From Thauera aminoaromatica S2 (GTDB lineage: Bacteria; Pseudomonadota; Gammaproteobacteria; Burkholderiales; Rhodocyclaceae): a DNA stretch of 59,350 nt. The notes below the pieces were generated by a model, which saw only the letters and a list, made by a program, of their open reading frames with translations, did no database searches and had not been told where the DNA came from. Made by a program: the position numbers and the translations under genes. The stretch lies in the NCBI RefSeq assembly GCF_000310185.1, contig NZ_AMXD01000006.1:1-59350 (forward strand), written 5' to 3'. Every line of letters begins with the position of its first letter. Within the stretch, counting starts at the first letter, position 1. Of this stretch, positions 10,671 to 41,887 are shown in pieces.

Positions 10671-10819
10671 TGTTCCGCGCAATTAAAGTCGAAAACTTCG
10701 CTTCAGCCCCGACGAGGACTCCATCGCCACCTCACGCAACGTTAGTCACGGGAAAAGTCGAAAACAAGAGCAAGCGGTGAGGCAGGCTTGCGCGGGTCTT
10801 GAACAATATAGTCGAAAAC
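10671..10819. repeat. Left end of Tn7-like element with three spaced transposase-site repeats
   Basis: The terminus is followed by three direct copies of the AGTCGAAAAC core (10681-10696, 10751-10765, 10805-10819) spaced about 70 and 54 bp apart. Three separated sites over about 150 bp is the layout of a Tn7 left end. Confidence 0.8.
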
Positions 10820-11026
10820 AGCCCTTTCGCAGTATCCGGAACCGCTGGCCGAGCACCCCAGTTTGCTTTCTTGGCCTGGCCGGGCGAACTCACCATGGAC
10901 TTCCGCTTACGGTAGAGTAGAGATGTGGCGCGGTAGCAGTAGGTTCGGTTTGTCTGTTATCCGCCCCTTTCGTCTGGCGGTGCCCAAGTAACCTTGCCTT
11001 AACCCCGTTTCCACATCCCCCTCATC

Positions 11027-11059
11027 GAACCGGACGTGCAGATTTCCCGCATCCGGCTC
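11027..11059 (-). ncRNA. Group II intron domain V
   Basis: The minus strand reads GAGCCGGATGCGGGAAA followed by TCTGCACGTCCGGTTC: the conserved catalytic hairpin, with GAGCCGGA pairing to TCCGGTTC, the internal bulge and a GAAA-type tetraloop. It lies 12 bp past the maturase stop codon, where domain V is expected. Confidence 0.85.
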
Positions 11060-11071
11060 TCAGACAAGACA

Positions 11072-12397
11072 TCACGCCTTCGCCCACGCCTTGTTGCGCC
11101 CGCCCAGGCTGGCAAGACCGAAGTACCCGTAAAGGTGCGAGAGTGGATAATTCCCGCCCTTGCTTCGCCTGACCTTGTATTTGTTGCGCAACCACCGACG
11201 CAACCGCGTCGCCGTGTAGCTGTCGAGCGCACGATAGGCGCGGCTCACGGTCCCTACACTGAAGTAGTTCGCCCAGCCGCGCAGCGCACGGTTCAACTTG
11301 CCCACCAACTCCGTGGTCTCTTGCCAACCCGTTCTCAGATCGGTCAGCGCATGGATCTTCTCGACCATGCGCCGGATACTCTTCTTCGACGGCCACAGGG
11401 CAATCCGAGCCTTCCCTGTTTGCGCCGAGTACCGTCTTCCGAACGTGTAACCCAGAAAGTCGAACTCGCCTTCCGGGACCTTGCAGATTCGTGTCTTCTC
11501 CTCGTTCACCGTCAGCTTCAGTTTGCCCATGATCTGGCGCATTCGCTGCAAGGCTTCTTCCGCCTTGCCACGTTTGCATAGGATCACGAGGTCGTCGGCG
11601 TAGGTGACGATTCGACTGCCAAGGCTGCGCTCCAGCCCGAGCTTCTTCCACCCCAACACAAAACGCCGCATATACAGATTCGACAGCAACGGCGAGATTG
11701 GGGAACCTTGCGGGATGCCGCGCGCGTTGTCCTTGGCCTCGGTCGTACGCTTCTTCCTTCCTCGGGAATCAGTCTCTTCGACGGTACATTCCAGCCACAT
11801 CTTGATCAGATGCAGCACACGCCGATCAACGATGCGTCGCGCAAGCGACAGCATCAGTTCGGCATGCGGAATGCTGCCAAAGTAGTCCGCGAGGTCGGCG
11901 TCAACGGCGTCCGTATGACCGCGGTACAGGCGTTCCTCTACCTCCTTCGCCGCCTGCTGGGCATTGCGGCCCTGCCGGTAAGCGTACTGCTCGGGAGGGA
12001 GATCGGCTTCGAAGATCGGCTCGAGCACCAGCATTGCTGCTGTCATGCAGACCCGATCCCGCAGGGTCGAGATTCCCAGTGGCCTGAGCTTGCCGTTGGC
12101 CTTCGGGATGAACACTCTCCGAATAGGGTCCGGTCGGTAGCTCTCCTCTTTGAGGGCAACCGCCAGTTCGTCCAGCCATCGCCGCACCCCATACGCTTCG
12201 ACGTCGGCAAAGTCCTGACGATCCACGCCCGGCGCGCCCTTGTTTGAGCGGCACTGCGCATAGGCATGGGCCAGAATGTCTTGCCGGTAAATCTTGTCGT
12301 ACAGGACGTAGAAACGATAGCCGGATTCCGACTTCGCTTTCGCGTGTAACGCCATCTGCAGTTTCTGAACACTGATCGGAGTTGATAGGTTGCCCAA
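11072..12397 (-). CDS. ltrA: Group II intron reverse transcriptase/maturase
   Basis: 441 residues. Reverse-transcriptase blocks are in order: a [13 protein letters not shown] opening, [47 protein letters not shown], the catalytic YADD and [13 protein letters not shown] maturase/X domain ([18 protein letters not shown], then [12 protein letters not shown]) closes the protein. There is no C-terminal HNH endonuclease domain, so mobility would use the replication fork or another primer. It assists splicing and retrohoming of its own intron. Confidence 0.95.
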
Positions 12398-12895
12398 TCT
12401 CCACGTCCCTCACTACGTCTTGCGTTGATCTTGAATCAAGGCCCCTTCCCTCCACCGGCATTACCCGGCTTCCCCGGTACTACGGGCCTCTCCGCCACCC
12501 CAAGCCGCCCGGACCGTCTCTCACGAGCGTCCGGTTGGTCATCCCTGACCACGCCAAGGGGCTTCCCGTGTTGCGTGCGCTTTCCTTGTGTACATGCTGT
12601 CGCCACTACCCCGGCACAGCGACTGGCGGTCCTACCTTGCTCATCCGTCCAGCCGTATCAGCCTTCCCCGAAAGGGTCGTCGGGTCAGCCTGTGCATCGT
12701 CTTTTTCGAGGCTTACTCAGCGTTCACTCGCGTTACGGCCTGCACACTCGCGCTGCCACCGAATTTTGTGGCCCGCTTAACCGAAGGCTTCAGCCATTTC
12801 GTTACCTCCATGACTGCTCCGGTTGCTTCCGGCTGGAGCATTTCGCCGGGTGGGGCTTTCACCCACTGGAAAAGCGCCGCCTTTGCACGGCGCAC

Positions 12896-13120
12896 ACCCA
12901 CAAGAGACACTCATGGCGTAGCTGGTCCTGTGGCAGGTCTCTGCGTGAAGCAGGCAGCCCAACGCACATAGGCCACGGGCCGCTACTGTTCAGCTTTGTT
13001 CGACGCCTGCCCCTTCCCCGTGCCGATGAAGGTTCGACCCGTGCCTGTGGGCAGGCGTTGGACAAAGCCCGGGGGAGGAAACCGCGAAACGAGGCGAGGC
13101 TGTTCAGTCGGGGCTCGGCG
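12896..13120. other. Intron 5' exon flank with a 10-bp inverted repeat
   Basis: No convincing gene. ACGCCTGCCC (13003-13012) and its reverse complement GGGCAGGCGT (13049-13058) form a hairpin of about 56 bases. The region lies between the intron and the IS91-like element and is probably remnant exon or IS sequence. Confidence 0.5.
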
Positions 13121-13344
13121 TTATGGGCATTTGAGCGCCGCCCAATCGCGCAGGTACGCGATGTGCGTGGTGCTGCGCCAGGCGCCGCGTGTTGCGTGAA
13201 GGCGTTGCCCGCCCTCGGTTGCGCGGGCGAGGTCCGCGCGGCGCGGCTTGTGATGTGAATGCCAGTGGCGGGCGCAGCGGGTCTTGACCAGGCCCGTCCG
13301 AACGGGTGCTGGCGGAAGGCTGCGGGCGTGGAAGCGATGCCCGA

Positions 13345-14553
13345 TCATGAGGTCACCCCACGGAGTGGTGGCGCGCGGATCGTCGCACCCCGAGCAAAGG
13401 TTTCGATCACGCGCATCACCGATCCACAGCAGCGACACACGAAGCCGGTGGTGGGCGTGGTCGACAGCGCGGTGGCTTCCGGCGCCGAGGCGATGGTGCA
13501 TGGCTCGTCTGGAGGCGTTGCGCCAAGCAGTTCCCGCGCACGTGCCAGGTGCTGCCGCCGTCCCGCGTTGGCGAGCAGTCCGTAGTGCCGGATGCGGTGG
13601 AAGCCGCACGGCAGCACGTGCAGCAGGAAACGGCGCATGAACTCCCCGGCGGTGAGCGTCATCGTCTTGTGGCGGGTGCGCCCCTCGGCGCGATAGTCCT
13701 TCCAGCGGAAGGAGACGCAGCCCCCGTCGAGGGAGACCAGGCGACGGTTCGAGATCGCCACTCGATGGGTGTAGCGCGACAGGTAGGCGAGCACCGCCTC
13801 GGGGCCGGCGAAGGGCCGCTTGGCATAGACGACCCATTCGCTCGTGCGCAGCGGCGCGAGCCAGCGCAGGAACGCGGCCATTTGTGCCAGCGGGGCGAAC
13901 TCGCCGAAGAAGCTCAGCACGCCGGCGTGATGCGCCTTCGCCAGCTCTTCCAGGAAACGCCGCCGGAACAGCCGCGAGAGCACGCGGACCGGCAAGAAGA
14001 AGCCATGCCGGCAGGCAATCCAGCGTTGCCCGTCGGCCGACAGGCCGCCGCCGGGGACGATGCCGTGCACGTGCGGGTGGTGCGTCATCGCCGAACCCCA
14101 CGTGTGCAGCACGAGCGTGGCGCCGATCGTCGCGCCGAGGTGCTTCGGATCGGCAGCGATGGTGAGCAGCGTCTCGGCGGCGACCTCGAACAGCAGCCGA
14201 TAGACGAGCGCCTTGTTGGTGTAGGCGAATGCGCTGATCGGCGCCGGCAGCGTGAAAACCACGTGGTAATACTCGACCGGCAGCAGATCCGCCTGCCGGG
14301 CCTCGAGCCAACGCTGGGCGGCCCGCGCCTGACACTTCGGGCAGTGCCGGTTGCGGCACGAGTTGTAGCTGATGTCGATCTGCTCGCAGGCCTCACAGCG
14401 CAGCACATGCCCACCCAGCGCCGCAGTGCGGCACTGTTCGATGGCCGACATGACCTTCAACTGCCCGAGGCTCAAGTGATCGTGCTGGGCGAGACGCCAC
14501 GCCGGCCCGAAGGCGCGGAAGATGTCCGCGACCTCCAGTGCGGAGCGGACCAC
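13345..14553 (-). CDS. IS91-family HUH (Y2) transposase
   Basis: 402 residues from a GTG. The N-terminal zinc cluster is CEACEQIDISYNSCRNRHCPKC. The rolling-circle core shows HHPHVHGIVPGGG (the HUH pair) and, further on, YLSRYTHRVAISNRRL with the catalytic tyrosine region. Full length for the family. It nicks and unwinds one strand at the origin end. The gene begins 7 bp after the recombinase gene ends and is probably co-transcribed with it. Confidence 0.93.
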   Translation of the reverse strand: MVRSALEVADIFRAFGPAWRLAQHDHLSLGQLKVMSAIEQCRTAALGGHVLRCEACEQIDISYNSCRNRHCPKCQARAAQRWLEARQADLLPVEYYHVVFTLPAPISAFAYTNKALVYRLLFEVAAETLLTIAADPKHLGATIGATLVLHTWGSAMTHHPHVHGIVPGGGLSADGQRWIACRHGFFLPVRVLSRLFRRRFLEELAKAHHAGVLSFFGEFAPLAQMAAFLRWLAPLRTSEWVVYAKRPFAGPEAVLAYLSRYTHRVAISNRRLVSLDGGCVSFRWKDYRAEGRTRHKTMTLTAGEFMRRFLLHVLPCGFHRIRHYGLLANAGRRQHLARARELLGATPPDEPCTIASAPEATALSTTPTTGFVCRCCGSVMRVIETFARGATIRAPPLRGVTS

Positions 14554-14560
14554 GATGCGC

Positions 14561-15436
14561 CTACGCCGACTGCAAGGTCTCCAGCGGACTGACGACTTCG
14601 CGCAGCAGGTCGGTGGCGACCTGGGTGTAGATCACCGTGGTGTCGAGTTTCTTGTGGCCGAGCAGCGCCTGGATGATGCGGATGTCGACCTTCTGCTCGA
14701 GCAGGTGGGTCGCGAAGCAGTGGCGAAGCGTGTGCATCGACACCCGCTTGTCGATGCCGGCCGCCAGGGCGGCGGCCTGAACAGCGCGATTGAGTTGGCG
14801 CGGGCTCAGTGACTCGATCGGGTTGAGGCCCGGGAACAACCAGCCGCCATCGAGCATTTTGCCCTGCGCCCGGGCGACCCGCCACCACACGCGCAACCGC
14901 TCCAGCAGCAGGGGCGAGAGCATCGCGTAGCGATCCTTGCGGCCTTTGCCTTGCTCGACCCGCAGGGTCATGCGCCCGCTGTCGACGTCGCTGACCTTGA
15001 GCGAGACCACTTCGCTCGCTCGCAGTCCGGTCGCGTAGGCGAGCGACAGCGCCGTCTGGTGCTTGAGATTGTTGCAGGCGGCGATCAGGCGCGCGACCTC
15101 CTCGCGGCTGAGCACCACCGGCAAGCGCTGCGGCAGCCGGACCGGCTGCATTCGTGCCATCAACTCGCCGCGTTGAAGCGTGATATCGAAGAAGAACTTC
15201 AGCCCGCTGATGGCGGCGTTGAGCGACATCGGCGAGGTGCCGGTATCGACCAGGTGCAACTGGTAGTTGCGCAGGTCCTCCACCGTGGCGCTATCGGGCG
15301 CGCGCCCCAGATAGCGCGTGAACCGGCACACCGCACGGATGTACGCACTCTGCGTCTTGGGGGTGAGCTTGCGCATCCGCATGTCGTCGAGCATGCGCTG
15401 GCGCAAGGGGCTGACGGGACGAGTCGGGGTGTCCAT
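14561..15436 (-). CDS. Tyrosine recombinase/integrase of the IS91-like element
   Basis: 291 residues, start supported by AGGAG. The N-terminal SAM-like core-binding domain (KTQSAYIRAVCRFTRYLG) is followed by a catalytic domain with Arg in GLRASEVVSL, Lys in GKGRKDR, HTLRHCFATHLLE (H-x-x-R) and the nucleophile in TVIYTQV. All catalytic residues are present. Such XerD-like proteins accompany a subgroup of IS91 elements, where they may resolve intermediates. Confidence 0.92.
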   Translation of the reverse strand: MDTPTRPVSPLRQRMLDDMRMRKLTPKTQSAYIRAVCRFTRYLGRAPDSATVEDLRNYQLHLVDTGTSPMSLNAAISGLKFFFDITLQRGELMARMQPVRLPQRLPVVLSREEVARLIAACNNLKHQTALSLAYATGLRASEVVSLKVSDVDSGRMTLRVEQGKGRKDRYAMLSPLLLERLRVWWRVARAQGKMLDGGWLFPGLNPIESLSPRQLNRAVQAAALAAGIDKRVSMHTLRHCFATHLLEQKVDIRIIQALLGHKKLDTTVIYTQVATDLLREVVSPLETLQSA

Positions 15437-15578: not shown

Positions 15579-16916
15579 TTATGAACAGCTATCCATAACG
15601 GTCATGGTAAGGCCAACGCTCGTCGTTCCGGCAGCTGACCGCACAAAGGTGGCGCCGCCATGCATTCGCGCGATCGCAGCTACGATCGCCAAGCCGAGCC
15701 CGTGGTTATGGTCGCGATGTTCGCGGGCCCCATCAACCCGATAAAAGCGGTCGAATAGACGAGGCAAATGCTCCGGGGGGATGACAGGGCCCGTGTTGCT
15801 GACAGACAGGCAAATGCGGCCATCTGCGTCCTGCTTGATATCGACCTCGATCACCGATCCGCGCTCTGCAAAACGGGTCGCATTGGCGAGCAGGTTCGAG
15901 AGCGCACGCCTAACCAACCCAGCATCGACTGTGCCCATGCCGTCACCGCGTAAGCGCGCAGTCACGCCGGCCTCCTGCATTGACGCTTCGTGGAATTCGA
16001 TGACCTCGGACACCAGTTCGGCCAGGCTATCCACACGGTGGCGACGGGCGCGCTCCCCGCGATCGGCCCGGGACAAGAACAACATGTCATTGACCAGCCC
16101 CGCTAAAAGTTGAAGATCCTCGAGGTTCGATCCGAGCACATCGCGCAGTTCGGCGACATCGCGCTGACGACTCAGAGCTAGCTCGGTCTCACCAATCAAG
16201 GTCGCCAGCGGTGTGCGCAGCTCGTGAGCGACATCGGCGTTGAACCCTTCCAGTTGTTGATATGCGCGGTTCAATCGAACCAGGAGCGCGTTGAATTGTG
16301 TGACCAACGGCTGAAGCTCCTGTGCCTGGGCGGAGCCGTCAAGCGGCTGTCCAACGCTTTCCGGGCTTAGGGCCGCTGCTTGTCGAGCCAGGTCGCGAAC
16401 AGGCAAGAGCGCTCTACGAACGAGCCATGCGCCGCCCACTGAGATGGCCGCCGCTCCACCAAGGGCGCTCGCGAGTAGCGTCCAGGCCAACTGCTCCAAA
16501 AGCAGCGCGTCGGCGCTGCTGTCGAGCATCAATTCGGCGCGCAGCATGGTTGTGGGCGACCATGGCACGGAGATTTCGAACTCATCCCGCCGCAGGATTG
16601 CGCCGGGGCTTGAACGCGCCGGAGTTGCGTACAGAAGAGCGTCAGATCCCTGGATCAGCCGTAACTCGAGGTTGGCATGGCCCACAAAGAAGTCGTCGAG
16701 CTTGTGACGCAGGCTCGGCAACGCGTCCCGCGTTGCAATCTCGCCGACGAGATGGCGCACTATGTCCCGCTTGTGCCGCAGTTCGTCCGTCTGCTTGTTG
16801 GAGAGATTTAGACTCGCGCCCACGTAAACGATCGAGCAGACCAAGCCGAGCCCCAGCGAGGCCAGCACGGCGAGCCACCACGATAACCAGCGGCTAAGCG
16901 AACGCGGATTGCGCAT
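15579..16916 (-). CDS. czcS: Metal-responsive sensor histidine kinase (CzcS/CopS-like)
   Basis: 445 residues. A transmembrane helix near residues 10-32, a periplasmic sensor of about 130 residues, a second helix (LLASALGGAAAISVGGAWLV), HAMP, the HisKA box DVAHELRTPLATLIGE, and HATPase motifs NLLANATRFAERG and GLGLAIVAAIARMHGG. It phosphorylates the response regulator encoded directly upstream. Its last residues (MDSCS) end at the putative IS91 insertion point, so the natural C-terminus may have been swapped for a few residues. Metal identity is inferred from the neighbouring czc genes. Confidence 0.88.
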   Translation of the reverse strand: MRNPRSLSRWLSWWLAVLASLGLGLVCSIVYVGASLNLSNKQTDELRHKRDIVRHLVGEIATRDALPSLRHKLDDFFVGHANLELRLIQGSDALLYATPARSSPGAILRRDEFEISVPWSPTTMLRAELMLDSSADALLLEQLAWTLLASALGGAAAISVGGAWLVRRALLPVRDLARQAAALSPESVGQPLDGSAQAQELQPLVTQFNALLVRLNRAYQQLEGFNADVAHELRTPLATLIGETELALSRQRDVAELRDVLGSNLEDLQLLAGLVNDMLFLSRADRGERARRHRVDSLAELVSEVIEFHEASMQEAGVTARLRGDGMGTVDAGLVRRALSNLLANATRFAERGSVIEVDIKQDADGRICLSVSNTGPVIPPEHLPRLFDRFYRVDGAREHRDHNHGLGLAIVAAIARMHGGATFVRSAAGTTSVGLTMTVMDSCS

Positions 16917-16918
16917 TC

Positions 16919-17605
16919 TCAGGGCTTCCGGTCCTCAAGGACGTATCCCATGCCGCGCACGGTATGCAACAACTTCTTCTCGAAAGCGTCGTCGATCTTG
17001 CCGCGCAACCGGCGCACCGCAACTTCGACCACGTTCGTATTGCTGTCGAAATTCATGTCCCACACCTGCGCTGCAAGCGCGGTACGGGAAAGGACCTGCC
17101 CTTGCCGGCGCAGCAGCAACGTCAGCAACGTGAACTCCTTGGCGGTCAGGTCGAGGCGCTGCCCGGATCGTGACGCCTTGCGCCGAACCAGGTCGAGTTC
17201 GAGGTCCGCCAAACGGAGCACCGTTGAATCCTGGCTATCCGAGCGCAAGGCACCGCGCCGCAACAAGGCCTGCACGCGAGCGAGCAACTCGGACAGAGCA
17301 AACGGCTTCACCAGGTAATCGTCGGCACCCGCCTGCAGGCCTCTGACCCGATCCTCGACCTCGTCCCGCGCGGTCAGCATCAGGACGGGTACGTGTTTGC
17401 CCCGACGCAGTTCTTGCAAGACGGCATAGCCATCCAGCCCCGGAAGCATGACGTCGAGGAGGACGAGGTCGTAATGCCCTTCGGTCGCGAGATAGCGGCC
17501 ATCCGTGCCGCTGTGCGCGACATCCACGATGTAATTGCTTTCGGTGAGCGCCCTGCGTAGGTATTCGGCGAGCTTGGGTTCGTCTTCCACAACCAGAATC
17601 TTCAT
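16919..17605 (-). CDS. czcR: OmpR-family response regulator (CzcR/CopR-like)
   Basis: 228 residues. The receiver domain has the DE pair near the N-terminus, the phospho-acceptor in [12 protein letters not shown] and Lys in [13 protein letters not shown]. The C-terminal winged helix ends in [15 protein letters not shown]. It ends 2 bp before the kinase start, so the two form one operon, divergent from the czc structural genes. A 7-2-7 inverted repeat in the divergent promoter is its likely site. Confidence 0.92.
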
Positions 17606-18727: not shown

Positions 18728-19996
18728 ATGTTTCAGCAACTTCGTCTCAAATGGCTGCCTGGGCTAATGCTCGGCCTTGCCGTCAATGGTGCCTGGGCGC
18801 AGCAGCCCGCCCCCCCGGCTCCAAGTACCGCCCTATCCCTCAAGCACGCTTTCGAGGCAGCATGGGCACGCCAGCCTGAAGCGCTGTCGCTCACGACTCA
18901 ACAGGAAGCGGCGCAAGCGCGCCGCGACAGTGCCGACAGTTGGTTTGTCGAACCGCCCGCCCTAGAGGTAGCCGGAAAAACCGATCAGTTGGACAGCAAT
19001 CGCGGGAGCCGTGAGTACGAGGTCGGCATCGCGGTTCCGATCTGGCTGTCGGGCGAACGTTCGAGCACTGCAGCCCTCGCCACTGCCGAAATAGCTGCCA
19101 CGGCGAGCCGGGCTCGCGGCGCGCAGTTGCGCACCGCTGCAGCGGTACGCACAGCATATTGGGATTGGCAACGCGCGCGCGTAGATGTGACGCTGGCGAG
19201 GGCGGGTCTCGAGAACGCCCGCGAACTGGCCGCCGACGTGGCCAAGCGCATCAAGGCGGGTGATCTGGCGCGCGCAGATCAGCATCAGGCCGACGGTGTG
19301 CAAGCTACAGCTGAAGCCGCCGTCGCCGAGGCAGAAAGCGCCCTTGCAGATGCTGCACAGCAGTTGCGCACGCTCACTGGAATCGGGCCAGAACGCTCAT
19401 CCGGCGGGGTGTCTGCGCCGGAGCCCGTCCCGTCCGCTGCGACACCGACACAGATTCTTGAGACGGCGCACCCTGCAGTGGCCGAGCTGCGTGATCGGGT
19501 CGACGTTGCGCGGCGCACGATGACCCTTGCCAGCGTTCAGGGCCGCGCGAATCCGGAGTTGAGTGTCACGACCACCCGCGAACGCGGCGCATCGGGTGAA
19601 TCCTGGGAACAGACAGTCACGCTGGGCTTGCGCATTCCGCTTGGTTCCGGTTCGCGCAGCCGGTCCCGCGTTGCAAGCGCCAATGCAGAGGCCATCGAGG
19701 CCGAGGCGCAACTCCAGATCGAACTCGAACGTCTGCTGGCCGAAACAGAGATGGCGCACCAGCGCGTCGAATTGAGACGGCAGCAGGTCGCCGCTGCTGA
19801 ACGGCGCTCCGACCTCGCACAGGCGTCACGCGGCTTCTTCGAGAAGGCGTTCCGCCTCGGTGAGGCCGATCTGCCGACCCGTCTGCGCATCGAATTCGAG
19901 GCGGCCGAGGCCGAACGCGAGCGCGCGCGCGCGCGTATTGATCTGGCAGCCGCCATCTCGGCCCAGCGCCAAGCGTTGGGCCTGCTTCCCGAATGA
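18728..19996 (+). CDS. czcC: CzcC-like outer membrane efflux protein (TolC family)
   Basis: 422 residues with a signal peptide ending AWA-QQ. Two long OEP coiled-coil repeats follow, rich in Ala/Glu/Arg heptads, with strand segments such as YEVGIAVPIWLSGERS and QTVTLGLRIPLGSGSRSRS, which are typical of the beta-barrel parts. It forms the outer channel of a tripartite RND metal exporter together with CzcB and CzcA. Ribosome site GGAGAATTGG. The operon continues into the next two genes, but the pump gene czcA is missing. Confidence 0.9.
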   Translation: MFQQLRLKWLPGLMLGLAVNGAWAQQPAPPAPSTALSLKHAFEAAWARQPEALSLTTQQEAAQARRDSADSWFVEPPALEVAGKTDQLDSNRGSREYEVGIAVPIWLSGERSSTAALATAEIAATASRARGAQLRTAAAVRTAYWDWQRARVDVTLARAGLENARELAADVAKRIKAGDLARADQHQADGVQATAEAAVAEAESALADAAQQLRTLTGIGPERSSGGVSAPEPVPSAATPTQILETAHPAVAELRDRVDVARRTMTLASVQGRANPELSVTTTRERGASGESWEQTVTLGLRIPLGSGSRSRSRVASANAEAIEAEAQLQIELERLLAETEMAHQRVELRRQQVAAAERRSDLAQASRGFFEKAFRLGEADLPTRLRIEFEAAEAERERARARIDLAAAISAQRQALGLLPE

Positions 19997-20013
19997 ATAA
20001 CAGGATCCCCAAA

Positions 20014-20577: not shown

Positions 20578-21056
20578 AGCTGAGCGTACTGTTTGCTGCG
20601 CTGGCGCTGGTATCGGCCAGTGCCTCGTGGAATGCCTTTGCTGGCGAAGGCCATGATCATGGCGATGAAGGTCCGGTTGTGGCAGGAGGCAATGGGCCAC
20701 AACGGCAAGCCGATGGCAGTGTCTTTCTGCCCAAGCCGGCACAACGCCAGATCGGTGTTCGCACGTTGGTTACGGAAGCCGGCGAATTGCCGCGTACCAC
20801 CGCGCTGGCCGGCAAGGTGGTCATGGACCCGAATGCCGGCGGAAAGGTGCAGGCCATGGTGGCTGGGCGCCTGGAGGCGGGCCCGCAGGGGTTGCCAAGC
20901 GTCGGTCAGGCCGTGAAGAAGGGGGACGTGCTGGCTTACGTCAGTCCTTCGACGGACCAGATCGAGCGGTCTAACCAGATGGCGCAATTGGCCGAGCTGC
21001 ACGCGGCCAGGGCCCTTGTGGAAAAGCGCCTTGCGCGTCTGTCGGCGCGCGTCTAA
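20574..21056 (+). pseudogene. czcB: czcB (RND membrane-fusion protein), 3' part lost at an IS21 copy
   Basis: The reading frame begins with a signal peptide and GEGHDHGDEG, followed by the membrane-fusion N-terminal strand and hairpin start (PKPAQRQIGVRTLV, VMDPNAGGKVQAMVAGRLEAGPQGLPSVGQAVKKGD, VEKRLARLSAR). It runs into the IS21 terminus and stops after 160 residues; family members are about 400-500. The lipoyl/hairpin remainder and all of czcA are absent on the other side of the IS, so the efflux system cannot work as encoded here. Confidence 0.88.
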
Positions 21057-21215
21057 AACTACCCAGCGGTGCGCGTTGAATTTTACCCAGGCACTTTAGT
21101 TGCCCGTCATGCAGCAACTGCTTTTCAGTTTAGTCGAGTTACCGTTCGTGAGTGTGCGCAGAGAAGCCCGCGAAGGGCGTAGCCCGAAGCGGGCTTCTCT
21201 GCGCGGGCGCCGGGA

Positions 21216-32130: not shown

Positions 32131-33747
32131 GGCCGAGGCTGTGTAAAAACAGCGGCGTTGGTATGATATAGGCATTTCTAGCCTGGTGTGATGCCATGAA
32201 GCGATTCGTCGAAGGACAGAGCCGCACACAGGGGGCCTTGCTGCCCGAGTCGCTGGACGACTTCGTTGCTGAGGCCAATCCCGTTCGGGTCATCGATGTC
32301 TTCGTCGATGAGCTCGATCTTCGCAAACTCGGCTTCACTGGCGTCGATCCAGCGGCCACAGGACGCCCCGCCTATCATCCGGCTGTGCTGCTCAAGCTCT
32401 ACATCTACGGCTACCTGAATCGGATCCAATCGAGCCGGCGCCTTGAGCGCGAGGCGCAACGCAACCTGGAGTTGATGTGGCTGCTGGGCCGCTTGATGCC
32501 TGACTTCAAGACCATCGCCAACTTCCGCAAGGACAACCCGAAGGGGATCCGTGGCGTTTGTCGTCAGTTCGTGGTGCTGTGCCGCGAACTTGGACTGTTC
32601 GCCGAGGCTGTGGTCGCAATCGACGGCAGCAAGTTCAAGGCTGTCAATAACCGAGATCGAAACTTCACCAGCGCCAAGTTGCAGCGGCGAATGCAGGAGA
32701 TCGAGTCGAGCATCGAGCGTTACCTCGTTGAGATGGACAGCGCTGACCGGCAAGAGCCCGCCGTGGCCCAAGCGAAGAAGGAACGGCTGGCCGACAAGAT
32801 CACCACCCTGAAGGCCCGGATGAAGGAGCTCGAAGCGATTGGCGTCCAACTCGAGAGCACACCTGACAAGCAGATCTCCCTGACAGATCCCGACGCCCGA
32901 TCCATGAAGACTCGAGGCACGGGCATCGTCGGCTATAACGTCCAGACGGCCGTTGAGACCAAGCACCACCTGATCGTGGCGCATGAAGTCACAAACGACG
33001 GGCTCGACCGGGATCAATTGAGCACGATGGGCAAGCTGGCTCGTAAGGCGATGCAGGTGGATTCCCTCACGGCGATTGCTGATCGGGGCTATTTCAAGAG
33101 CGAGGAGATCCTCGCCTGCCACAAAGCCGGCATCGTGCCGCTTGTTCCGAAGAGCGCTACATCCAACGCAAAGGCCCATGGGCGCTTTGATCGCGCAGAT
33201 TTCGTGTATGACCGCGAGAACGACGAGTATGTTTGCCCCGCCGGCGAGCGCCTGATCTGGCGCTTCGCCAGAGTGGAAGGCGGGCTCATGATGAACCGCT
33301 ACTGGAGTTCATCTTGCCCGCGATGCCCGATAAAGAGCCAGTGCACACCCAGCGACTACCGGCGTGTGAGCCGTTGGGCGCACGAGGAGGAGCTTGAGGT
33401 GATGCAGGCGCGGCTGGATAAGGCACCCGATAGCATGCGCATCCGACGACGGACCGTCGAACATCCCTTCGGTACATTGAAGGCCTGGATGGGCGTGACG
33501 CACTTCCTCACCAAGGGCCTTGAGCGCGTCCGAACCGAGATGAGCCTGCATGTTCTAGCGTACAACTTGAAGCGAGTGATGAAGCTGATGGGAAATGAAG
33601 CGCTTATGACGGCAATTCGGGCCTGATGGGGTTTTTTTACGTCACCTGACGTGCCAATTCAAGGCATCGAATGACTTGAATTGCACGAGGTGGCGAGAAG
33701 CCGCCGCCGGTCGTTGCGGCCGTAGCCGTTTTTACACAGCCTCGGCC
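32131..33747 (+). mobile_element. IS1182-family insertion sequence
   Basis: Perfect 20-bp terminal inverted repeats (GGCCGAGGCTGTGTAAAAAC and its complement) bracket one transposase gene. No direct duplication is seen: the left flank is TAGTCC and the right flank AGGAGC. The right end abuts copy 2 of the dispersed 73-bp repeat. Confidence 0.9.
32196..33626 (+). CDS. IS1182-family DDE transposase
   Basis: 476 residues. The N-terminal helical domain (RPAYHPAVLLKLYIYGYLNRIQSS; LMPDFKTIANFRKDN) is typical of the IS5/IS1182 group. The catalytic core shows VAIDGSKFKA, ITAIADRGYF and, near the C-terminus, RRRTVEHPFGTLKAWMG with the Glu. Cys residues in CPRCPIKSQC follow the IS1182 pattern. Intact. 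Confidence 0.95.
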   Translation: MKRFVEGQSRTQGALLPESLDDFVAEANPVRVIDVFVDELDLRKLGFTGVDPAATGRPAYHPAVLLKLYIYGYLNRIQSSRRLEREAQRNLELMWLLGRLMPDFKTIANFRKDNPKGIRGVCRQFVVLCRELGLFAEAVVAIDGSKFKAVNNRDRNFTSAKLQRRMQEIESSIERYLVEMDSADRQEPAVAQAKKERLADKITTLKARMKELEAIGVQLESTPDKQISLTDPDARSMKTRGTGIVGYNVQTAVETKHHLIVAHEVTNDGLDRDQLSTMGKLARKAMQVDSLTAIADRGYFKSEEILACHKAGIVPLVPKSATSNAKAHGRFDRADFVYDRENDEYVCPAGERLIWRFARVEGGLMMNRYWSSSCPRCPIKSQCTPSDYRRVSRWAHEEELEVMQARLDKAPDSMRIRRRTVEHPFGTLKAWMGVTHFLTKGLERVRTEMSLHVLAYNLKRVMKLMGNEALMTAIRA

Positions 33748-34475: not shown

Positions 34476-35588
34476 TCATGTCATAACGCCAAGCAGCTCG
34501 GCGCGAAACTCGTCATTCGTCGCAGCCAGCATGCGCTTGGATTTGATGCTCGCCTTGCGCGTCGTGTTGAGCCGCAGCAGGTTCATCACGATGTGGCGGA
34601 CGATGGCCAGGTTGTTGGCGGCGTAGCCGCTGCGAACGCGTGACTGATCCTCGTTGAACTGCACATCCAGGCACCAATGAAGCCGATTCTCGATCTCCCA
34701 GTGACTGCGTACGGCCCGAGCGATGCGCTCGGCGTCGGCGGGCAGGCTGCTGATGTAGAAGACGCGCTCGGTGCTGGTGTGTTCGCCCACGGTGCGAATG
34801 CGCTCGACCACCGCGAAACTGGCCAGGTCCTGCCAGTCCTCGGACTTGTAGAGGCGATCGATCGCGGCGTAGGCGCGGCATCGACGGATTTCGATGCGAC
34901 CGTGGTCCTTGATCGTGGTCTCATGGATCGAGCTTGGTGTCAGCGGCTCTCGCGGATCGATGTCGGCAAACAGGATCGAATCGTGCAGGTTCGGATGGTT
35001 CTCCTTCACACACAGCACGTAATGCGCGCTGCGCTCGCGGATCGTGCGGGCGATCTTCGTCTGGGTGCCCATTGCGTCGATCGTCACCACGCAGCCCTCA
35101 ATCGCCAGTTTGGCAAGCAGTTCGGGAATCGCGGTGATCTCATTCGACTTCTCGGCGGTTGCCGTCTGGCCCAGCACGACGCCCATGCCAGCCGCGAATG
35201 CGCTGACCAGGTGCAGCGGACTGGCGTCGGTCTTGCCCTTGCCGCCCGAGCGCCGGCTGGTCCTGCCGTCGATCGCGACGACCGTATCCCCGGCCAGCGC
35301 CGGCACCACCATGCCCACCCAGCGCCGGAACGCGGACTCGAACTCGTCCGGCGCGATCAGGCCGAACACGCGTCCGATCGTGTCGTGAGACGGGATGCCG
35401 TGCTCAAGCTGCATGAAACCTCGCAGCCAATCGAGCTTGGCCTCTGCCCACAGTTCGATGTCCACGAAGTCCTCCACGCCCGAGAGCACCGCGCACACCG
35501 CCGCCGTGAGCAACTCGGCTAGGTCGTGGCGGATCTGGCGCGCGCTGCGCGGGTCGGAAATCGCGACGAACACCTGCGTCAGCGGCAT
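34476..35588 (-). CDS. ISAs1-family transposase
   Basis: 370 residues from MPLTQVFVAI; six more codons upstream are open. The DDE_Tnp_1-associated N-terminal domain (DPRSARQIRHDLAELLTAAVCAVLSG; EHGIPSHDTIGRVFGLI) precedes the core with VVAIDGRTSRRSG, VVTIDAMGTQ and, late, SHWEIENRLHWCLDVQFNEDQ, which holds the catalytic Glu. Complete. Terminal repeats could not be fixed with confidence. Confidence 0.93.
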   Translation of the reverse strand: MPLTQVFVAISDPRSARQIRHDLAELLTAAVCAVLSGVEDFVDIELWAEAKLDWLRGFMQLEHGIPSHDTIGRVFGLIAPDEFESAFRRWVGMVVPALAGDTVVAIDGRTSRRSGGKGKTDASPLHLVSAFAAGMGVVLGQTATAEKSNEITAIPELLAKLAIEGCVVTIDAMGTQTKIARTIRERSAHYVLCVKENHPNLHDSILFADIDPREPLTPSSIHETTIKDHGRIEIRRCRAYAAIDRLYKSEDWQDLASFAVVERIRTVGEHTSTERVFYISSLPADAERIARAVRSHWEIENRLHWCLDVQFNEDQSRVRSGYAANNLAIVRHIVMNLLRLNTTRKASIKSKRMLAATNDEFRAELLGVMT

Positions 35589-36187
35589 GACGTTTCCTGC
35601 CTTCATGGGATGCCCAAAAAGGTAGGAAACTACACAAGTTATGACGCTGTGAACAGGGGTCTCACAAGGTCATGAAAGTTAACAAGTTATGGATTTGAAC
35701 TATGCAAAATCGGTGCGATTGCCCTGCCGGCAATCTGCACTTGCCTTCGTCCGGTGATTTCCGACGTTGAGCGACTGCTTTCCGCAAAGCCCAACGACGG
35801 CATCGGGTCGGCAGCACTCGGCGACGAACGGCTGCTTCCGGGAAGTGAAAAATCAACGACCGCTTTTCGGCGATGAACTCGAAGAGATGTCAGTCGCATT
35901 CCGACCCAGACCCGGCATCCGGACTTCCCCGAAGCCGCCGCTGAGCACAGGGGTCTTCTGTGAGTTTCGCTGCCACGAAGCTGCCGTTCGTGACCTCACG
36001 ACTCCGGCCATTAGCAGTCAGCGGATCAACCACCTGAAAGCCGTCATTCGCGATTTCGGCGCAGCACTGCCTAGACGGAAGTCTGGCGGGTGACGCGCTA
36101 CTCATCGATCATTGTAGGGAGCGCGAGAGTAGTATCGGACATCTCGAACATCCCGGGATTCATTGAACCCAACACGCAGGGGGATAA
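35589..36187. other. Gene-free stretch between ISAs1 and the SIR2 gene
   Basis: No supported coding frame. It holds an attC-like remnant (listed separately), the ISAs1 flank and the presumed promoter of the SIR2-HerA operon. Confidence 0.5.
35765..35810 (+). repeat. attC-like remnant
   Basis: 46 bp matching, without gaps and at 39 positions, the 3' half of the integron attC at 40827-40872. It includes the CGTTGA...TTT-CC-C-AAAGC...CAACG hairpin and GGGTCG. The match ends at the G that in an attC precedes TTAGG, the recombination point. Confidence 0.55.
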
Positions 36188-37504
36188 ATGCCAGAGGCAG
36201 AGGCGAGCAAAGCGCGGTTCTCGTTCTTCAAGGGTGGCGACGATGTGGTCGCCCCAAAGGGCGGCGAAGATTTCGACTGGGAGAAGGGCGTACTGCGTGT
36301 GCGTGAAAACCTGCATGACGCCCTCAATGCCAAGAACCTGGCGTTCCTGTTCGGGTCAGGATGCTCTTCATTGGTGGTTGATGGCACGCAGCGGGGTATC
36401 GACACGATGGCGCCGCTGGCCAAGGAGTTCCTCGGAGCTGCTCCGGGCTTTGATGACACGCGGTTTCCCAGTGGAGCAGAGCGCGAGGCGCTGACGAAGT
36501 ACCTCGGCTTCGATCTGAAAGCCGACGAGTTCGCATCGAACCTCGAACGGCTCATGGAGGTGCTGTACAGCTTCCAGTTTGTGCTGAAGCGAAGCGCCAG
36601 CGAGGAGATGGCAAAGGGTACGGCTGCGGTCGATTCGCTGATCGAAAAGGTGACTGCGTTTGTCACCCAGAAGTGTTCGGAAGCGCCCTTCTCCAAAGGT
36701 GACCCGGCGATCGTGGACCTGTATCAGGCCTTCTACCGGAAGTTGGTCTACAGGGACCGGACGCTGCCGCGGCCATGGATCTTCACTACGAACTACGACC
36801 TCCTTAGCGAAACGGCGCTAGACCGGCTCGGGATGCCATACTGCAACGGCTTCTCAGGGACCATCGAGCGCAGGTTCAATCCGACGACCTACCGGTACGC
36901 GCTGGCCGAGCAACTCGATCTCACGAGTCGCAAGTGGGCAGCGGTTGACAGCTTCATCTACCTGTGCAAGTTGCACGGTTCGATCAACTGGATCGAAGAG
37001 GGCGGAAGCCTGTTTCCGATCCGGGAGGTTCCTGCGGTTGCGGCTACCAAAGGCAGCCGGGTCATGATCTATCCGACACCCATGAAGCAGAACGCCAGCT
37101 TCGGGTCGCCGTACTCGGACCTGTTCCGGGAGTTCCAAGGACGGATCGTACGAGACCAGAGCGTCCTGTTCGTAGTTGGATACAGCTTCAGTGACGAGCA
37201 CGTCAACAACCTGATCTTCCAGGCGCTCACCATACCGACATTCCGCCTGGTGGCGTTTCTGCCGCCCGACGCCGCAGGGGTAACGCAGAAGCTTCGTTCA
37301 CTGCACGATCCCCGAATCTGGTTGATAGGTGGAGCTGGCCCGAAGGGTGGGACCAAGGCGCACTACTTCGACACCTTCGTCGAGAAGTTCATGCCTGAGT
37401 CTCCAGCCGACAAGGTCGATACCGCCGTGAAGAAGGTCCTGGAGGAGCTGATCGCACAGGGTGTCAGGACGGCACCAAACGAGGAAAACGGCCATGACGA
37501 CTGA
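36188..37504 (+). CDS. SIR2-domain NADase of a SIR2-HerA defence system
   Basis: 438 residues; GGGGG lies just upstream of the ATG. SIR2-type NAD-binding motifs: AFLFGSGCSS near residue 54, WIFTTNYDLL near 199, CKLHGSINW near 260 and LFVVGYSFSDEHVNN near 331. The preceding N-terminal 40 residues are specific to SIR2 proteins paired with HerA. In such systems SIR2 degrades NAD+ on phage infection, in complex with HerA. The stop overlaps the HerA gene by 11 bp. Confidence 0.88.
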   Translation: MPEAEASKARFSFFKGGDDVVAPKGGEDFDWEKGVLRVRENLHDALNAKNLAFLFGSGCSSLVVDGTQRGIDTMAPLAKEFLGAAPGFDDTRFPSGAEREALTKYLGFDLKADEFASNLERLMEVLYSFQFVLKRSASEEMAKGTAAVDSLIEKVTAFVTQKCSEAPFSKGDPAIVDLYQAFYRKLVYRDRTLPRPWIFTTNYDLLSETALDRLGMPYCNGFSGTIERRFNPTTYRYALAEQLDLTSRKWAAVDSFIYLCKLHGSINWIEEGGSLFPIREVPAVAATKGSRVMIYPTPMKQNASFGSPYSDLFREFQGRIVRDQSVLFVVGYSFSDEHVNNLIFQALTIPTFRLVAFLPPDAAGVTQKLRSLHDPRIWLIGGAGPKGGTKAHYFDTFVEKFMPESPADKVDTAVKKVLEELIAQGVRTAPNEENGHDD

Positions 37505-39497
37505 TGACCGGCGCCGAGCGATCGGCAAGGTGGTGTCGGTGGCGGCCGACCGCCTGGTGGTGGAGCTGCATGGTGGGACTGCCAACTTCACTGTTGTCGG
37601 CTTCGACGATGTCCACTACGTCGCACGGCTCGGCTCGTTCGTCGTGATGCCGGCTCAAGCGGAGTACGTGGTCGCGGAGGTCGTCGGGTTGCGGGAGAAG
37701 GACGCTCCCTCGTCTCGCAGTGCGCAAGGCGAATCGACAGAACTAGACAAGGCAGGTTCAGCCAAGTACCTGGACCTGGTTCCAGTGGGCATGCTCCCCC
37801 AGAGGCGCGATGGAGCGTTCAGGTTCGGAGTTTCAACGTTTCCGTCCCTATATGCCGATGCGCTCTACGTGCTCGACGAGGAGCTCGACAGGATCTTCGA
37901 AGTCCAAAGCGCTACCGAGATCGTTCCGCCGCCGATGGGCAACGGCGAGGCGACCCGGTACAACGCGCTGTCGATCGGCACGTCGGTTGTCTTTCAAGAC
38001 TACGCCGTCAAAGTCAGAGTCGATGAGTTCTTCGGCGGCCACTCCGCTGTTCTGGGCAACACCGGCAGCGGCAAGTCGTGCACGGTCGCCACCCTTCTCC
38101 AGTCGTTGTTCGAGAAGAGAGACGAGTTCTTCGCGAGAGGTGCCACGTTCCTTCTCCTGGACGTCAACGGTGAGTACCGTTCGGCGTTCAGCGAACTGCC
38201 TCAGTCTGTGAAACGGCGGTATCTGAAGCTCGAGGCTGATCCAAGTTCTCCGGCCGCCGCACCAGCGGACGCGGCAGAGACGACCGCTGTGTTTCGACTG
38301 CCTCACTGGTTCATGACGGTAGAGGAGTGGGAACTCCTGCTGCGTGCCAGCGAGCGGACGCAACAGCCAGTCCTGCGATCAGCGCTCGGGCTGGTAACGC
38401 TGTTCTCGGCCGAAGGGGGCAACCAAGAAGCGCTCGAGAAGCTCAAGAACCACATCCTCGCAAAGTGCCTCCTCTACGTGCTGAACTCGGCTGACAGCCC
38501 TGCGGCAAAGGCTGATCGCGTTACAGCCTTGCTGTCATCGTTCGAGACGGCAGCGTTAACTCTCAAAGCTGCGAAGCCTTTGCTTGGGCTCAATTTCGGG
38601 ACGATGCCGGAGTTGCAACGGTTGATTCAGATGTTCGAAGCGCAACTGGATGAAGACGTCACGGTGCCGAACTACTCGAACAAGAGCTTTCGATTCGAGG
38701 ACCTCGAGCAGGCGTTTGACCTGGCGCTTCTCTACGAGGAAGCGCACGGCAACATGCAGATCCGGGACTACTGCTCCCAGATGATCACGCGATTCAAGTG
38801 GATTCGGGAGCGCGATGAATTTGCGTTCCTGCGGGTGCCGCCTGAGCAGCTTCAGGAGCACGAGCGGAACGTAGCGCAGTTTGTCGAGCGATGTATTGGT
38901 CTTTCCCGGCTGGATGGCAAGTTCCAGAAGTCCGCTCAAGTAATCGTGCTTGACATGAACGAAGCGGGGGATGAGGTCGTCGAGGTAGCGTCGGCTGTCA
39001 TTGCAAGGCTGATCTTCGACCGGCTGCGCCGAGCGGAACCGAGGAACCAGACGCCGATCAACCTTGTCCTGGAGGAGGCCCACCGGTACGTCGCGGAGCG
39101 TTCGTCGGGCTATGCGATCGATGCAAGTCGCATCTTTCAGCGGATAGCCAAGGAGGGACGGAAGTACGGCCTGTTCCTAATGGTCGCCTCGCAACGGCCA
39201 AGCGAGCTGTCGAAGACGGTACTGTCGCAGTGCTCGAACTTTGTCGTGCATCGCATCCAGAATCCTGACGACCTTCAGCACATCCGGCAGATGACCCCCT
39301 TCGTATCCGATAGCGTGATGAAGCGTCTGCCGTCATTGCCGAAGCAGCACGCATTGATCTTTGGCAACGCGGTCAATCTACCGACGACGTTCAAAGTCCG
39401 GGACGTGAAACCGAAGCCGAAGAGCGATGACGCAGCGATTCGGGAGTTGTGGTTTCGGCCAGCCGGCAAAGAGGCAGAACTGCAGGTACCAGAATGA
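37494..39497 (+). CDS. herA: HerA-type ATPase of a SIR2-HerA defence system
   Basis: 667 residues from an ATG with AGGAAA upstream. An N-terminal beta-barrel HAS domain (GKVVSVAADRLVVELHGG) leads to the FtsK/HerA motor: Walker A GNTGSGKS near residue 187 and Walker B VLEEAH near 523, then a sensor/arginine-finger region (FLMVASQRPSELSKTVLSQCSNFVVHR). HerA forms hexamers that in this system bind and control the SIR2 enzyme, and can also drive DNA translocation or nuclease activity. Confidence 0.92.
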   Translation: MTTDDRRRAIGKVVSVAADRLVVELHGGTANFTVVGFDDVHYVARLGSFVVMPAQAEYVVAEVVGLREKDAPSSRSAQGESTELDKAGSAKYLDLVPVGMLPQRRDGAFRFGVSTFPSLYADALYVLDEELDRIFEVQSATEIVPPPMGNGEATRYNALSIGTSVVFQDYAVKVRVDEFFGGHSAVLGNTGSGKSCTVATLLQSLFEKRDEFFARGATFLLLDVNGEYRSAFSELPQSVKRRYLKLEADPSSPAAAPADAAETTAVFRLPHWFMTVEEWELLLRASERTQQPVLRSALGLVTLFSAEGGNQEALEKLKNHILAKCLLYVLNSADSPAAKADRVTALLSSFETAALTLKAAKPLLGLNFGTMPELQRLIQMFEAQLDEDVTVPNYSNKSFRFEDLEQAFDLALLYEEAHGNMQIRDYCSQMITRFKWIRERDEFAFLRVPPEQLQEHERNVAQFVERCIGLSRLDGKFQKSAQVIVLDMNEAGDEVVEVASAVIARLIFDRLRRAEPRNQTPINLVLEEAHRYVAERSSGYAIDASRIFQRIAKEGRKYGLFLMVASQRPSELSKTVLSQCSNFVVHRIQNPDDLQHIRQMTPFVSDSVMKRLPSLPKQHALIFGNAVNLPTTFKVRDVKPKPKSDDAAIRELWFRPAGKEAELQVPE

Positions 39498-40872: not shown

Positions 40873-40878
40873 TTAGGG
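40738..40878 (+). repeat. attC recombination site of the cassette
   Basis: R'' GCCTAGC - 5 bp AATTC - L'' GTTGCAA at the 5' side; L' CTGCAAC - 5 bp GGGTC - R' GTTAGGG at the 3' side. L'' and L' are complementary at 6 of 7 bases and R''/R' at 5 of 7, with equal 5-bp spacers. The centre contains an AGCTTT/AAAGCT hairpin. Total 141 bp, within the known attC range. CAATTCGTT is also the usual attC opening. Confidence 0.75.
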
Positions 40879-40881
40879 TAA

Positions 40882-41106
40882 CTTGCTAGTTTCGGAAACC
40901 GGCCATTCTTATCGCATACAGCCGAGCGGAATCGAGCGACACCATTGGCCGAACTGCTGTGTGACGGTGATTTTCAAGTCGATTACCAGTTGCTAAGCGT
41001 TCAGCCACTTCCAAGCTGGATCCAAGAGTCGATCCCGTCTGACAAAACAGTACTCAACTGCCGCCCTCTGAATGACGAAGACGCAAAGTTTATGAGCACC
41101 ACCTAG
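40882..41106 (+). pseudogene. Open 75-codon stretch without a good start, possible gene remnant
   Basis: The frame is open from just after the attC to a TAG at 41106, ending NCRPLNDEDAKFMSTT. There is no ATG near the beginning and only a TTG near the middle, and it overlaps the end of the opposite-strand gene by 4 bp. Its composition is coding-like; it may be a gene whose 5' end was lost when the cassette inserted. Confidence 0.35.
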
Positions 41107-41690
41107 ATCTCATCAGAACGATCAACGATCTCAAGCTTGAACTGCCAGCCCTCGAACGCCGACAGCATACGCCCGAAGTCATTCCATGAGATTTCACGGC
41201 CATCAATCACGAGCAGAGGGGTCCGCTCCACCGCAGACTCATCCCAATCGATACGCCCCCGCACCGTCTGCTCAGCGATCTCAGTTTTCTCGCCTTCAGT
41301 CGCCAGATGCCTGATCGAGAGCAAACGGCGAAGTCGTGCGATCAGCTTCGCAAGCAATGCAAGTAGCTCTTGCTCAGGATTCCCGATTACCTGGCACTGA
41401 TAGCCTGACGGGCGACCATCGCGAAGTTCAAAGGCATCCAGAACAACGATGTTCCCATGAAGACGCGTTCGGAAGAAGAAACGATGCGTTTCCCCTACGC
41501 TGTCCGTGAGGTCGATCGGCTCGAGCGGGATATCTTCAAAGTGCGCAAGACCCCCTAGCCGGGCAACGTCCGCGTTGAAGCATCGAGTACAAAGCTGGCG
41601 ACAGCTTCCTTCGGCACCGCGATAACTGACGATGTCGTAGTGCGGCGTAAGCTGGCCACAGCTCTCGCATGGAATCGTGTCTTGGTCCAT
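41103..41690 (-). CDS. Zinc-ribbon protein of unknown function at the element's right end
   Basis: 195 residues from an ATG with GAGGGGG upstream. An N-terminal CESCG...CTRCF pair suggests a treble-clef zinc site, followed by a beta-rich domain (THRFFFRTRLHGNIVVLDAFEL), a helix, and a C-terminal ISWNDFGRMLSAFEGWQFKLEI segment. I do not recognise the family. In complete Tn7-like elements the tns genes begin near this end; this protein shows no TnsA-like nuclease motif. Confidence 0.65.
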   Translation of the reverse strand: MDQDTIPCESCGQLTPHYDIVSYRGAEGSCRQLCTRCFNADVARLGGLAHFEDIPLEPIDLTDSVGETHRFFFRTRLHGNIVVLDAFELRDGRPSGYQCQVIGNPEQELLALLAKLIARLRRLLSIRHLATEGEKTEIAEQTVRGRIDWDESAVERTPLLVIDGREISWNDFGRMLSAFEGWQFKLEIVDRSDEI

Positions 41691-41793
41691 CACGCCCCCT
41701 CGATGTGCCTTCATTTTTGAAGCTTGCTCCGCCGGCCAGTTGCTGGCGATACCCAGGCTGATCGCCGGGCGCCGTGGCGTCAGAGCACGCCCG

Positions 41794-41826
41794 AAAAAAA
41801 CGCCCGAGGGACTCCCCGGGCGTTTT
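41794..41826 (-). terminator. Rho-independent terminator at the right end
   Basis: On the minus strand CGCCCG-GGG-AGT-CCC-CGGGCG (one unpaired T) is followed by seven Ts. It would stop transcription leaving glmS after it crosses the three right-end repeats. The plus strand also has TTTT after the stem, so it may work both ways. The stem overlaps the innermost end repeat by one base. Confidence 0.85.
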
Positions 41827-41887
41827 CGACTTTATTGACCTGTTCTCGACTTTATTGCCACGTTGTCGACTTTATTTGCGCGGAACA
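41822..41887. repeat. Right end of Tn7-like element with three tandem 20-bp repeats
   Basis: GTT-N-TCGACTTTATT occurs at 41822, 41842 and 41862, an exact 20-bp period, and then the terminus TTTGCGCGGAACA. Tightly packed sites are characteristic of Tn7 right ends. The last element base lies next to CCGGA. Confidence 0.85.

Follow-up and report, generated by a model that had tools for sequence, protein, structure and literature searches.

A Tn7-like island lacking tns genes, with its own type of end repeat, at the glmS site of Thauera aminoaromatica S2

Introduction

The genome of Thauera aminoaromatica S2 (Rhodocyclaceae) carries next to glmS an island of 31,217 bp. In our judgement it very probably belongs to a betaproteobacterial lineage of Tn7-like transposons with an end repeat of its own, has probably lost its tns genes and would be immobile unless a helper acted in trans. 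The island spans positions 10671-41887 of the window, by which we mean the whole stretch of 59,350 nucleotides that was analyzed (contig NZ_AMXD01000006.1, positions 1 to 59,350); all coordinates below refer to it unless another locus is named. Whatever the fate of its tns genes, the element is a real, well-bounded and recent Tn7-like insertion at attTn7, and the mechanism to which it points is an ordinary one. We describe the ends and target site of the island, the search of its genome for a transposition machine, the machinery found in relatives and the distribution of the end family, and then weigh loss of the tns genes against movement in trans.

A well-bounded insertion at attTn7

The termini of the element are inverted and start with TGT, and 26 of their 30 outermost positions agree: the left terminus reads TGTTCCGCGCAATTAAAGTCGAAAAC from 10671, and the right one, reversed from 41887, reads TGTTCCGCGCAAATAAAGTCGACAAC. 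Both ends carry repeats that share the form GTTTTCGACTTTAWT. At the left end, repeats of the AAAGTCGAAAAC type lie at 10685, 10754 and 10808, with spacings of 69 and 54 bp, and at the right end the GTTnTCGACTTTATT repeats at 41822, 41842 and 41862 are packed at spacings of 20 and 20 bp. This compact right end is the glmS-proximal one, its terminus lying 22 bp from the glmS stop codon, and the sequence CCGGA stands as a target duplication on both sides of the element (Table 1). The listed open reading frame (ORF) of glmS, which reaches 44351, is over-long. An initial annotation made from the sequence had reported the inverted TGT termini, the CCGGA duplication, the three repeats at each end and the 22-bp distance from glmS, and we find all of them where it placed them. 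Together they present the hallmarks of Tn7-like transposons, namely TGT...ACA inverted termini with a 5-bp target duplication, arrays of ~20-bp repeats (putative transposase sites) that are wide at the left end and tight at the right, and insertion at a fixed distance past glmS with the right end proximal. Across the whole genome, matches to the paired 20-bp repeat (at most 3 mismatches) are confined to the element, and the reversed control pattern has none. The G+C content of the element is 60%, as against 64% in the left flank and 70% in the right.

The boundaries could be checked against element-free relatives. A query of 513 bp from the 3' end of glmS, run against 29 genomes of the genus, matched 23, in 22 of them at the glmS locus. 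Two of these congeners, G282 and G287 (loci L250 and L251), possess an uninterrupted site with one CCGGA. At L250, window positions 41887-43899 and 9534-10671 align to adjoining stretches at 96.3% and 97.3% identity, and at L251 positions 41887-43898 and 10272-10671 do so at 96.4% and 98.5%. These empty sites, of the kind that the initial annotation had proposed to compare, confirm the boundaries 10671 and 41887 and the single CCGGA of the target; with the ends and the duplication, they bear out its claim of an attTn7 insertion whose compact end lies next to glmS.

No tns genes found in the island, and no complete Tn7-type machine in its genome

Among the 29 island ORFs submitted to Pfam, which included overlapping ORFs only in part, none was named as a tns gene, and a tblastn search of the whole window in all frames with 20 Tns proteins of the lineage yielded no tns remnant (best E 0.049). 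Both searches agree with the earlier description of the island as devoid of recognizable tns genes. A Tn7-like transposon is expected to encode TnsA, TnsB and TnsC together with a TniQ/TnsD selector; relatives with the same ends encode this set and the window element does not, and we therefore class the latter as a tns-less derivative of a Tn7-like transposon rather than as an autonomous member.

The search was extended to the remainder of the genome (4.28 Mb in 317 contigs, 99.9% complete), in which neither a TniQ match nor a match to a profile built from four TnsBs of the lineage was found. This profile replaced Mu-transpos_C (PF09299), which was tried as a TnsB marker and matched 8 of 20 and 13 of 29 genomes, yet misses the TnsB of this lineage, a protein with no Pfam match. 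Negatives based on it were discarded, and the lack of a Mu-transpos_C match in the window's genome is likewise uninformative for this lineage's TnsB. The genome does contain one TnsA-like ORF of 213 amino acids, on contig C142, which reaches a best E of 2.2 against the Tns set of the lineage and 36-37% to TnsA-like genes of two other genomes (G119 and G150); by these matches it is a gene of another Tn7-like lineage. Its end has been replaced by an IS21 insertion sequence 99.96% identical to the IS21 of the island (L322:2214-5376 for the cut ORF and the insertion sequence). Since the genome offers only this truncated TnsA-like gene of another lineage, without TniQ or lineage TnsB, no complete Tn7-type machine was found in it. 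A conserved transposase hidden among the genes of such elements was also considered and rejected: across 19 stretches beside ends, each of at most 20 kb and four of them below 16 kb, with L039 and L045 lying outside the element, the widest cluster comprised 8 loci including the window and consisted of two-component regulators.

Transposition machinery in relatives

Relatives in which tnsABC and tniQ or tnsD lie beside or between the same ends, as the initial annotation had suggested looking for, were found in Duganella, HGW-Betaproteobacteria-6 (HGW-6) and G270. The complete relative at the same site is G270, a Hydrogenophaga metagenome-assembled genome (MAG), in which an element of ~58 kb at glmS has its right end at 29.5 kb and its left end at 87.9 kb of one contig, the duplication GTCAG flanking both ends and left-end repeats 68 bp apart; tnsD, tniQ, tnsC, tnsB and tnsA occupy 76.6-84.3 kb, near the left end. 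Pfam analysis of ten chosen ORFs identified TniQ or TnsD adjoining the end in Vogesella aquatica (L143), Duganella sp. sic0402 (L123) and HGW-6 (L131), and in larger stretches from Duganella (L213) and HGW-6 (L214) a family end stands beside tniQ, followed by tnsA, tnsB and tnsC. In G157, a left end, a lineage TnsB and TnsC share one contig.

Against the TnsB of Tn7 (7pik), TnsB of the lineage gives E values of 1.1e-35 and 1.4e-34; TnsC from Duganella matches its Tn7 counterpart at E 3.7e-14. The other three lineage TnsBs are 41-44% identical to that of Duganella and six TnsBs of other lineages 16-22%, and the catalytic acids D325, D413 and E448 are invariant in all ten TnsBs aligned. The earlier suggestion of a separate Tn7-like lineage thus holds for the end motif, which is the lineage's own, and has to be narrowed for the transposase, which is still a relative of Tn7 TnsB.

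Full-length lineage TnsB is known from eight loci (G037, G157, G245, G249, G250, G251, G270 and G571), and at four of them (G157, G250, G251 and G270) a family end is present in the DNA examined. Twelve TnsB loci of other lineages (L094-L098, L100-L104, L106 and L107) were considered as helpers and rejected, none of these stretches having the paired end repeat. Plasmids were searched as a source of lineage TnsB; 1602 of 72,556 records match, but not one reaches 60% identity, and the matches listed lie at 26-31%. Separately, fragments of a lineage-like TnsB, overlapping one another and interrupted by a stop, lie on contig C33 of G074 (L295:6650-7295), a family genome in which the paired-repeat pattern is unmatched.

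A second insertion site emerged in two Dechloromonas genomes, HGW-6 and MAG AG28, where 29-31 bp separate the terminus from an inverted repeat, TTAGCACTC-N9-GAGTGCTAA (L111:3318-3374, L116, L131:3526-4477 and L132:129-1082). The repeat, which we take to be of the CIRCE type (controlling inverted repeat of chaperone expression), precedes a gene that is rpoH in all three cases submitted (TIGR02392, E 3e-119 or better), the fourth beginning alike; groES was the gene proposed before this result and was dropped. One of the four genomes, HGW-6, has tnsABC and two tniQ genes. The promoter side of rpoH is a likely second target of the lineage, presumably recognized by one of its selectors.

Distribution of the end family

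A search for the paired right-end repeat, with at most 2 mismatches allowed, was positive for 20 of 249 genomes of the family, the window's among them, from 12 of 68 genera. Its reversed control matches one family genome (G131), five times. The right end adjoins glmS, where the initial annotation had proposed to look for the repeat, in 18 of the 20 genomes and lies elsewhere in G213 and G078. An evenly drawn sample of the order has the paired repeat in 6 of 399 genomes, again counting the window's. Among GTDB genome contigs, one terminal repeat plus terminus retrieved 48 stretches, 40 of which come from Betaproteobacteria or, once, from an unplaced proteobacterium; the other eight (Firmicutes, Bacteroidota and Actinobacteriota) were set aside as chance matches, with no second repeat in the 60 bases inspected. 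Within the genus itself, ends of the family, some of them decayed, follow glmS in eight more congeners (G296, G103, G291, G279, G280, G281, G283 and G284), as judged by eye from the flanks of the 22 glmS loci. The glmS locus of one of them, G291 (L263), is identical over 1,473 bp with that of the record Thauera sp. UWPOB_THAU1 (L146).

The geometry of the ends is well conserved. For 34 distinct right ends that have the tail of glmS within 120 bp, the distance from the stop codon is 22-25 bp in 33 cases and 29 bp in the remaining one. Where three left-end sites were found, their offsets are 14, 82 and 136 in L133, L138 and L150, 14, 82 and 137 in G157, and 14, 83 and 137 in the window. A terminator-like hairpin was seen directly inside 15 of the 29 right ends on the glmS side, as against 2 of the 12 remaining right ends and none of 11 left ends, counts made with thresholds set after examples had been seen and over rows that are non-independent; inside a right end, such a hairpin may substitute for the glmS terminator displaced by the insertion.

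Several loci depart from the common plan. In G150 (L038) and Hylemonella gracilis (L110) a second, inverted right-type end lies on the far side, as if two right ends bound the element. Beside glmS in G175 (L033:168-330), a right end and a left-type repeat stand ~160 bp apart, resembling a miniature inverted-repeat transposable element remnant with a decayed outer terminus. On contig C47 of G119 (L105:1474-1610), variant repeats TTTACGACTTTAT with a spacing of 53 bp, followed at some distance by a third, lie near a TniQ piece; with the left-end spacing of the family and a changed core, they are perhaps the end of a sister lineage. Finally, ~0.6 kb past glmS the congener G214 carries a 90% copy (L253:2606-3403) of window positions 27088-27885, the SRAP region, and no end of the family was seen at this copy (L253), so the site evidently also acquires accessory genes in other ways.

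Loss of the tns genes or movement in trans

In the course of events that we consider very probable, the end repeats would be TnsB sites, TnsABC of the lineage would have cut and pasted the element while TnsD read the end of glmS, and that insertion would have left the right end at its distance from the stop codon. The element's own tns genes would have been lost, probably in rearrangements brought about by passengers (the group II intron, IS91 and IS21), and the present copy, carrying efflux genes, a SIR2-HerA defence pair and other cargo, would require TnsABC and TnsD of the lineage in trans in order to move. The left side of the window element, the position of the tns genes in G270, holds the group II intron, IS91 with the recombinase, and the IS21-cut efflux operon.

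Decayed tns genes have been caught in other elements of the family. G122 has a 24.6-kb element at glmS with the duplication GCAAT on both sides and an outer left triplet of ATA, not ACA; just inside its right end lies a 139-amino-acid piece of tnsA, 50% identical to lineage TnsA over 128 amino acids, and no TniQ was found in that genome. A Ramlibacter element at glmS likewise has pieces of tnsD just inside its right end. Over 41 element-side stretches, many of them part of an element (L268, where no end was detected, was excluded), the remnant search returned these two sets of pieces, whole genes in HGW-6 and Vogesella, and nothing in the other 37. The remnants in the G122 and Ramlibacter elements lead us to favour, moderately, loss of the tns genes over life as a satellite.

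Several observations weigh against this course of events. The window element itself has no tns remnant, and loss from this copy is therefore something we infer. The insertion postdates the split from the two element-free congeners (96-98% identity), so that the time available for complete loss has been limited. A helper might be hidden between the 317 contigs, though the completeness of the assembly is high, and the binding of TnsB to the end repeats is a prediction from sequence. At four of the lineage TnsB loci (G037, G249, G245 and G571) the sequence covered, which is cut short in part by contig breaks, contains no family end; a single complete autonomous relative at glmS was found; and the Duganella and HGW-6 elements occupy other sites, with left ends not seen.

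The strongest competitor, which we consider possible but rather unlikely, is that the island is a satellite transposon that arrived already without tns genes, as many elements of the family would have done, and was moved in trans by a TnsABCD helper that has since vanished. Both of its ends are intact, yet no lineage TnsB or TniQ was found in the genome. Moreover, ends outnumber transposases: among the 249 family genomes, 20 have paired right-end repeats and three have full-length lineage TnsB (G037, G157 and G245), with an overlap of one; among the 399 order genomes, the figures are six and one, with no overlap; and the eight genomes that represent the genus among the 249 include two with repeats and none with lineage TnsB. 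These counts give no clean ratio, however. Full length was defined as a profile score above 700 bits, with at most four candidates scored per family genome and at most two per order genome, and the end pattern missed two of the three TnsB-bearing family genomes (G157 and G245), so that the repeat and TnsB figures are both minimum values. The same tns-less element was in no case encountered as a unit in two genera; sequence shared between elements consists of end blocks of ~200-340 bp, passenger genes and, in the comparison with G037, an efflux block. The tns pieces in two glmS elements and the several decayed ends elsewhere are what would be expected of stranded copies. Vogesella and G037 were examined as genomes that might hold a helper together with a tns-less element and were set aside, contig breaks hiding the linkage. 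About as tentative is the broader proposal that the glmS site across Rhodocyclaceae-type bacteria hosts a population of Tn7-like islands that have no tns genes, range in size from less than a kilobase to 31 kb, share one set of ends, and live as satellites of rare autonomous elements whose TnsABCD moves them in trans.

Two further explanations have very little standing. That the tyrosine recombinase encoded in the island inserted it, the end repeats being incidental, draws on an integrase ORF of full domain length, but this gene adjoins the IS91 transposase away from the ends, the empty sites show a clean 5-bp duplication, and the duplication, the TGT termini and repeat arrays that recur in tnsABC elements point to a Tn7-type transposase. 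It is equally improbable that the island is composite or tandem and includes the type I restriction genes (2168-8976) and the RES-Xre pair to the left of 10671, accessory genes on the side of the element away from glmS: in the two element-free congeners xre-RES directly follows glmS, the same flank stands beside glmS in four further congeners, and no end repeat (at most 1 mismatch) occurs in 1-10670. Because the empty-site congeners run from glmS into that flank, the RES-Xre stretch is a native glmS neighbour in these bacteria, and the element does not extend to the type I restriction genes.

Cargo and passengers of the island

The island holds cargo and passengers of several kinds (Table 1). 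Window positions 15613-21040 (~5.4 kb) are colinear with the glmS element of G037 (L031) in three pieces at 72-75% DNA identity. The matching block in G037 adjoins a full-length resistance-nodulation-division (RND) pump and adaptor, for which reason the window cargo looks trimmed; its efflux operon is interrupted by IS21. Plasmid matches to the right 18.3 kb of the island come from seven records, all with their best places inside the IS1182 stretch. Joint descent with a 5.6-kb element of G034 was considered on the basis of shared cargo and abandoned, the shared block being IS21; only end similarity remains.

Table 1. Coordinates of the ends, target site, cargo and passengers of the island in the window
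Feature	Position	Strand	Remarks
Target duplication CCGGA, left copy	10666..10670		single copy in empty sites L250, L251
Left end	10671..10820	+	terminus TGTTCCGCGCAA; three end repeats at offsets 14, 83, 137
Group II intron, just inside left end	10912..12868	-	RF00029 at 10912-11061, RF02003 at 12728-12868; outer limits approximate
Reverse transcriptase/maturase ORF of group II intron	11072-12397		RVT_1, GIIM, TIGR04416
IS91 family transposase (passenger)	13345..14553	-	NF033538
Tyrosine recombinase beside IS91 transposase (passenger)	14561..15436	-	
Histidine kinase and response regulator	15579..17605	-	
TolC-type outer membrane gene, one further ORF, likely truncated RND membrane-fusion gene	18728..21056	+	RND match weak, E 1.3e-4
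IS21-type insertion sequence	21040..23620	-	second copy, 99.96% identical, on contig C142, cutting a TnsA-like ORF
SRAP protein (cargo)	27121..27810	+	
IS1182-type transposase (passenger)	32196..33626	+	92.6% to Thauera plasmid stretch annotated IS1182
ISAs1 family transposase (passenger)	34476..35606	-	
SIR2 and HerA anti-phage defence pair	36188..39497	+	PADLOC: SIR2 E 7e-206, HerA E 2e-294
Terminator-like hairpin, just inside right end	41797..41826		overlaps innermost end repeat
Right end, adjoining glmS	41822..41887	-	three end repeats, 20-bp period, offsets 14, 34, 54
Target duplication CCGGA, right copy	41888..41892		
glmS, attTn7 target gene	41910..43739	-	start inferred; homology to relatives begins near residue 205 of the listed ORF

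Comparison with known systems and significance

Tn7 of Escherichia coli inserts at glmS with its compact right end gene-proximal, makes a 5-bp duplication and has TGT termini, and the element does the same in each respect. The end repeat of the element differs from the one known from Tn7. In sequence, TnsB and TnsC of the lineage are related to the Tn7 proteins; its complete members have tnsD and tniQ facing tnsC-tnsB-tnsA and a TnsB of 740-860 amino acids, and the window copy differs from Tn7 in having no tns genes.

According to Benler et al. (2021, PMC8649781), Tn7 has three left and four right TnsB sites, as against three and three in the element. The Tn7-like elements with mapped ends in that study likewise bear arrays of ~20-bp repeats at both ends and carry defence genes and mobile genes as cargo. 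Relatives of the lineage also resemble the dual tniQ-tnsD elements in the covered passages of Faure et al. (2023, PMC10293859) in having two TniQ-domain proteins together with TnsABC, and the lineage is not named in those passages. As described there, the method of Benler et al. scans around tnsB and the survey of Faure et al. starts from TnsC; tns-less members would therefore fall outside both. Among the literature matches listed, which left subscription papers outside their scope, there was no mention of this end family, nor of Rhodocyclaceae carrying Tn7-like islands devoid of tns genes.

The end sequence described here serves as a marker for detecting Tn7-like islands independently of their tns genes. 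It has permitted a first end-based count, in which ends outnumber the matching transposase several-fold in one family sample. Should many of these islands be moved in trans, satellites would be a feature of Tn7-like elements too, as they are of phages and conjugative elements. The complete relative at glmS in G270 offers a reference for a direct test of such movement.

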